Positions 55,848-56,506 of a DNA stretch of 57,378 nucleotides are shown in pieces; position 1 is the stretch's first letter; the number at the start of each line of letters is the position of its first letter. This DNA comes from Candidatus Lambdaproteobacteria bacterium RIFOXYD2_FULL_56_26. Its GTDB lineage: Bacteria; SAR324; XYD2-FULL-50-16. Below the pieces are notes generated by a model. It worked only from the letters and a program-made list of their open reading frames with translations. It was not told the origin of the DNA and did no database searches. The position numbers and the translations under genes were made by a program. The stretch is taken from the NCBI GenBank assembly GCA_001783715.1, contig MFNF01000065.1, positions 1 through 57,378 of the forward strand, in the 5' to 3' direction.

Positions 55848-55970
55848 GGACAGGCCGATTTGGGGTTTAGGACCAGTCTAGTGGCCTTCCCCTCGGCCTG
55901 TCAAGCTTTGTGCCCTCTGGGGCTTGGGGGGACAATAGGACGGACCGGGGGCTGGGACCAAGGGGGATCA

Positions 55971-56013
55971 GCTTGGCTTTATAGGCCATTGTGACGGTTT
56001 GCCCTTTGGGGGC
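55971..56013. repeat. degenerate repeat copy 1 upstream of selC
   Basis: 43 bases, from GCTTGGCTTT to GCCCTTTGGGGGC. 36 of 43 positions equal copy 2. CCAAGGG just upstream and CCCTTTGG inside can pair. Confidence 0.7.
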
Positions 56014-56067
56014 GGGGCGTTAAGAATAGGCTGGTTGCCCGCTGGGTAGCGACCCCAAGGTCGGCGG

Positions 56068-56110
56068 GCTTGGCTTTGCAGCGAATTGTGACAGTTTGCC
56101 CTTTGGGGTC
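56068..56110. repeat. degenerate repeat copy 2 upstream of selC
   Basis: 43 bases, from GCTTGGCTTT to GCCCTTTGGGGTC, offset 97 bases from copy 1. Its last eight bases TTGGGGTC are the exact complement of GACCCCAA at 56051-56058, so the unit can fold into a long hairpin. Confidence 0.7.
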
Positions 56111-56271: not shown

Positions 56272-56370
56272 GGAGGCGGCAGTGGTGCTGGTGCCCACCC
56301 CGGTCTTCAAAACCGAGCGAGGGAGCTGTAAAAGCCCCCTGGAGAGTTCGATTCTCTCACGCCTCCGCCA
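56272..56370 (+). tRNA. selC: selenocysteine tRNA (anticodon TCA), with CCA encoded
   Basis: 99 bases folding as tRNA-Sec. Acceptor GGAGGCG(G) at 56272-56279 pairs with (A)CGCCTCC at 56359-56366, then discriminator G and CCA. The D arm 56282-56298 is a six-pair stem (GTGG-GC/GC-CCAC) with a bulged T and TGGT loop. Anticodon stem 56300-56304/56312-56316 with loop CTTCAAA gives TCA at 56307-56309. The long variable arm 56320-56340 is a seven-position stem. The T arm GAGAG-TTCGATT-CTCTC is at 56342-56358. The arrangement matches bacterial tRNA-Sec base for base. Oddities are G-A at the last acceptor pair, C-A at the first anticodon-stem pair, one A-C in the variable arm and the bulged T. It serves UGA decoding to selenocysteine with SelA, SelB and SelD, none of which is in the window. 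Confidence 0.92.
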
Positions 56371-56506
56371 ACTGCCTACCGCAGTTCAGCAGGAATCCGA
56401 GCTCTAAGCCAGATTTCATAAGCCTTTAACCATGGGGCTTCCGGGTCGTCTGCTTGAACCGTTCTGTTCCGTTTTCTTCTCTTTTTTGCGGGTTTTTACC
56501 CTTCAC

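Follow-up and report, generated by a model that had tools for sequence, protein, structure and literature searches.

The selC gene near the end of the window (the whole stretch analysed, 57,378 nucleotides, contig C65 in a draft genome of 68 contigs and 3.08 Mb that is 97% complete) is predicted to be a functional, single-copy gene for tRNA-Sec, whose irregular pairs would be tolerated or used and whose 3′ part is a probable target of mobile elements. We put this reading as a whole at about 80%. The gene itself is almost certainly an ordinary, working selC with the irregularities typical of its class, judging from its sequence and that of its relatives. One pair, private to it, leads to a modest, testable idea concerning wobble shape in the long variable arm.

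Identity and architecture of the gene

A single tRNA, tRNA-Sec(UCA), was found in the window by ARAGORN (Table 1). The sequence-only reading had described a complete tRNA-Sec architecture with a TCA anticodon and an encoded CCA, and had proposed a covariance-model scan. Sequence, ARAGORN and Rfam all bear the description out: the gene scores 61 bits against the Rfam tRNA-Sec model RF01852, above the gathering score of 47 (E = 3.3e-11), and 101.8 bits with R1, a covariance model built from selC genes of the class, and it has G73 and a long variable arm besides the anticodon and CCA. Its minimum free energy fold is the expected cloverleaf and beats 200 of 200 shuffled sequences (z = −2.7). The acceptor-T arm has 8 + 5 positions, with 12 standard pairs plus a G-A at pair 8, and the D stem has 6 pairs, a 4-nt loop and one bulged base.

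Table 1. Coordinates of selC, its parts and the adjoining DNA in the window.
Feature	Position	Strand	Remarks
selC, tRNA-Sec(UCA)	56272..56370	+	CCA encoded; G73 = 56367; found with ARAGORN, RF01852 and R1
Acceptor 5′ strand	56272..56279	+	8th base G56279 opposite A56359 (tRNA 8-88)
D arm	56282..56298	+	7 nt facing 6; loop TGGT; extra U56286
Anticodon arm	56299..56317	+	TCA at 56307-56309; C56300 opposite A56316
Variable arm	56320..56340	+	8 pairs; pair 5 = A56324-C56336
T arm	56342..56358	+	5 standard pairs; loop TTCGATT
Acceptor 3′ strand, discriminator and CCA	56359..56370	+	strand 56359-56366; discriminator G56367
63-bp block	56309..56371	+	exact second copy at C59:135-197 (L360); probable integration-site repeat
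Lower-G+C DNA to contig end	56372..57378	.	probable first part of an integrated element

The only disturbances of the cloverleaf are G56279-A56359, C56300-A56316, A56324-C56336 and the extra U of the D stem. All four had been pointed out in the sequence-only reading and lie where it had placed them, but two of them are open to another drawing. The anticodon stem can equally be drawn with A56316 bulged and C56300 paired to G56317, so that the C-A mismatch may be a bulge; and with 7 nucleotides facing 6 in the D stem, the choice of the bulged base is a matter of drawing, of which T56286 is one option.

Three of the four irregularities are common to the class

The gene was compared with a class set of 44 selC sequences, 42 of which belong to the class, which we take to be SAR324; 39 class genes, each of 99 nt, could be aligned with no gap. 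A second set was made of 231 unique selC genes from many phyla beyond the class set, 190 of them readable at acceptor pair 8 and 228 at the D arm. In an alignment of 23 distinct class genes, 97% of the cells were paired and 101 double changes were counted, against 26 in shuffles. The cloverleaf of the class genes is strongly backed by covariation.

Three of the four irregularities recurred in the class set, a comparison with relatives that had also been proposed beforehand. Acceptor pair 8 is G-A in 19 of the 39 aligned genes, G-G in 14, G-U in 4 and Watson-Crick in 2, so that it is non-standard in 33 of the 39, as it is in 100 of the 190 readable outsiders. The anticodon-stem pair 29-45, flanked by invariant C-G pairs, is C-C in 18 genes, C-U in 17 and C-A in 4, and a standard pair was found in none of the 39. 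In the D arm, 7 nucleotides face 6 in every one of the 44 class-set sequences and in 116 of 228 outsiders. These three irregularities are thus common to the class. The extra base of the D stem and the anticodon-stem site without a pair, both class-wide, would be tolerated or used. The non-standard eighth acceptor pair, class-wide and common elsewhere, corresponds to C7-G66 of E. coli; together with two other pairs, C7-G66 directs the binding of SelB there and keeps EF-Tu away (PMC9976931). By analogy, the non-standard pair may do the same job in this organism.

Non-standard pairs number 2 to 5 per gene across the class, and 3 here. Several mismatches in one tRNA, which had been considered unusual, are so only when compared with textbook tRNAs; within the class they are ordinary. 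Nor is the protonated pair that had been suggested for C56300-A56316 needed, the site being variable and never paired across the class. A selC gene is misjudged if only its mismatches are counted: pair 8 is non-standard in about half of the sampled bacterial selC genes, and calling them pseudogenes from the pairing there would be wrong.

Eight draft genomes of the class (G019, G022, G024, G025, G036, G037, G045 and G049) have selA and selB, and no selC was found in them with either model. A search for divergent selC genes in class members lacking one above threshold gave serine, leucine, tryptophan and glutamine tRNAs as best matches, and the missing genes may reflect draft gaps or loss. Genome G046 carries two different selC-like genes (C133:338-429 and C95:1761-1855), one of only 94 nt, which may result from contamination or from a true duplication.

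A sole full selC beside the selenocysteine machinery

The genome search that the sequence-only reading had called for gave selA, selB and selD, and no full selC other than the one described here. The other tRNA-Sec family matches that were checked were serine, leucine or cysteine tRNAs. With R1, one further match was obtained, a 3′ fragment on contig C59 missed by both ARAGORN and Rfam. The selA gene is intact, and the SelB protein, 60% identical to that of genome G003, has the GTPase, beta-barrel and C-terminal winged-helix domains. The selD gene (contig C57:65557-66486, L062) contains one in-frame TGA, in the context TCG-U-AAK, and a 7-pair hairpin with a GGUC loop about 22 nt past this TGA, which is where a bacterial SECIS is expected. 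A SelW-like open reading frame (contig C46:58040-58246, L340) has a CxxU motif, YCGV-U-NYEP. No selenocysteine-containing formate dehydrogenase was seen, the molybdopterin enzymes of this genome having no internal stops.

In the established pathway, SerRS loads tRNA-Sec with serine, SelA turns the serine into selenocysteine using selenophosphate made by SelD, and SelB brings the selenocysteine-tRNA to UGA codons; the same steps would apply here. Both selD and the SelW-like gene seem to need UGA read as selenocysteine, and as the selC of the window is the only tRNA found for this job, it is likely to be functional.

The nearest selC (L067:239-337, in genome G003) differs at 9 sites. Four of these are unpaired or bulged (10, 15, 45 and 47), one compensated double change turns C-G into G-C at 54-64, and pair 53-65 goes from G-U in that gene to A-C in ours. 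Site 84 belongs to T-stem pair 74-84 of the tRNA, which is A-C in the relative, A-U in our gene and mostly G-C in the other class genes. This pattern looks like selection on structure. It bears on the alternative that selC is a decaying or non-functional copy losing its pairs, as had been proposed for the gene. The three non-standard pairs and the bulge would fit decay, and so would an Rfam score below that of many selC genes. Yet the genome has no other full selC, its machinery is intact and accompanied by two UGA-containing genes, three of the four irregularities are class-wide, and the changes relative to L067 fall on unpaired sites, are compensated, keep shape or restore a pair. We consider decay very improbable. 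Another of the proposals, a relaxed but working form, agrees with the gene being the sole full copy, with the machinery and UGA genes and with the class-wide irregularities, and appears to be the right one.

A probable integration site in the 3′ part of selC

The C59 fragment is an exact copy of a 63-bp block of selC, which runs from tRNA nucleotide 38 through CCA plus one base, and it is preceded by unrelated DNA. The G+C content is 0.57 upstream of selC, then 0.50, then 0.43 downstream; it is 0.40-0.43 around the C59 copy and reaches 0.58 past 2.8 kb into that contig. An order of contigs C65 and C59 would follow from the shared block. In genome G006, which belongs to the same family, the selC 3′ part occurs a second time as an exact 70-bp copy, 8.9 kb downstream of selC on contig C21 (L370), and the stretch between the two contains a tyrosine recombinase gene (PF00589, 92.8 bits). 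We conclude that selC is probably an integration site for mobile elements in this group. Such elements would target the 3′ part of the gene and restore it on integration, which would produce the exact 63-bp duplicate, as the repeat and the relative suggest.

No integrase was seen in the accessible flanks in this genome, where the stretch is split between contigs. The open reading frames between selC and the contig end have no Pfam match, and no defence or Pfam matches were obtained for the two open reading frames beside the C59 repeat or for the genes downstream of the sister selC. Upstream, an RNase II-like gene and a CoaD gene precede selC, as their relatives do in genome G005, and these neighbours are conserved. 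The long non-coding stretch before selC also contains a 54-nt repeat in two copies (55958-56011 and 56055-56108 of the window), 78% alike and 97 bp apart; TRF found no tandem repeats upstream of selC.

In 10 of 43 class genomes selC lies at most 400 bp from a contig end, for 2.5 expected. The excess is consistent with assembly breaks at adjoining repeats, and a role of selC as a landing site would help to explain why it is so often at a contig end in these draft genomes.

Variable-arm pair 5

The remaining irregularity, A56324-C56336 (tRNA 53-65), is the only one private to our gene within the class (n = 39). Counting from the T stem, it is pair 5 of the variable arm. We first consider it very doubtful that this or another mismatch comes from a sequencing or assembly error. 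One wrong base could make A-C out of G-C or A-U, and the assembly is a draft of 68 contigs. However, both bases lie within the duplicated block, so that a second place with different flanks, on C59, confirms them; the sister gene has G-U at this pair, two changes away; and the remaining irregularities recur in relatives.

In the 39 class genes, pair 5 is G-U in 34, G-C in 4 and A-C in ours. A wider survey covered 247 unique variable arms, 244 of them readable at pair 5; since each arm was folded on its own and the species are related to one another, its counts are descriptive. At pair 5, 129 of these 244 arms (53%) have a G-U or U-G, compared with 5-19% at pairs 1-4 and 6-8, and E. coli selC has G-U there too. 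One-by-one mismatches are also most frequent at this pair (6). An A-C occurs at pair 5 in three arms from unrelated bacteria, namely ours, one from Melainabacteria (L155) and one from Zixibacteria (L164), and in all three the A is on the 5′ side, the same side as the G of the dominant G-U. Apart from these three, only a C-A was flagged (L274), and it belongs to an alternative fold that is implausible.

A nearest-neighbour model gives a cost of about 4 kcal/mol for A-C relative to G-U at this position, a point against the preferred reading of the gene. The protonated A+-C wobble and the G-U wobble are isosteric, so A56324-C56336 can be read as a swap that keeps shape: it probably replaces the conserved G-U and forms an A+-C wobble of equal shape. 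In A+-C pairs the pKa is raised to about 6-7 (PMC12714568). Of the two sites for which protonated A-C pairs had been suggested, this is the only one where protonation is plausible, because here a conserved G-U is replaced. Extending this to bacteria at large, pair 5 of the tRNA-Sec variable arm could be a conserved shape element in which wobble geometry is kept and G-U may be exchanged for A+-C, an idea that we put forward tentatively and hold at somewhat less than even odds. If it is true, pair 5 hints at a site of recognition or of flexing in the long arm that the papers found do not describe. The comparison points to a place in the variable arm where wobble shape can be put to the test. In the literature, of which the structural papers were partly covered, we found no statement on an A-C/G-U swap in tRNA or on a G-U conserved in the variable arm of tRNA-Sec.

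The main rival to a shape-keeping swap is drift: the gene would work, and A56324-C56336 would be a mismatch tolerated after drift, or brought in by the 3′-half copy of a mobile element, with no selection on wobble shape. The entire variable arm lies within the duplicated 63-bp block, which could have arrived with an element; the nearest relative carries an A-C of its own in the T stem; and pair 5 elsewhere also shows U-U, A-G and G-G mismatches, together with many standard pairs. Against this, pair 5 shows a strong preference for G-U across many phyla, and every A-C found in a readable arm is at this very pair and in the G-U orientation. We regard drift as rather unlikely.

Comparison with known systems

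The gene shares with bacterial tRNA-Sec of the 8/5 type (RF01852) the UCA anticodon, G73, CCA, 8-position acceptor and 5-pair T stem, the 6-pair D stem with its 4-nt loop and the long variable arm. It differs from the standard form by the G-A at the eighth acceptor pair (half of the other bacterial selC genes are likewise non-standard there), the extra D-stem base, the unpaired anticodon-stem site and the A-C in place of the usual G-U. Atypical tRNA-Sec molecules with a 12-bp acceptor-T arm and with bulges, 13a in the D stem and 43a in the anticodon stem, have been described (PMC5330540), and the anticodon-stem site of our gene can be drawn as a bulge like 43a. The selC-type tRNA-Cys also have a tRNA-Sec-like architecture and sometimes a UCA anticodon, with U73, an 8/4 form and a T-stem bulge (PMC7609411); in our gene the T stem has all 5 pairs and the discriminator is G73, which rules out this identity.

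E. coli selC is an integration site for genomic islands (PMC6174562). As with these islands, what appears to be foreign DNA adjoins selC at its 3′ end, in our case together with a repeat of the selC 3′ part. Unlike them, the present case belongs to another phylum, and the integrase is found in the relative G006, none being seen in the accessible flanks of this genome.
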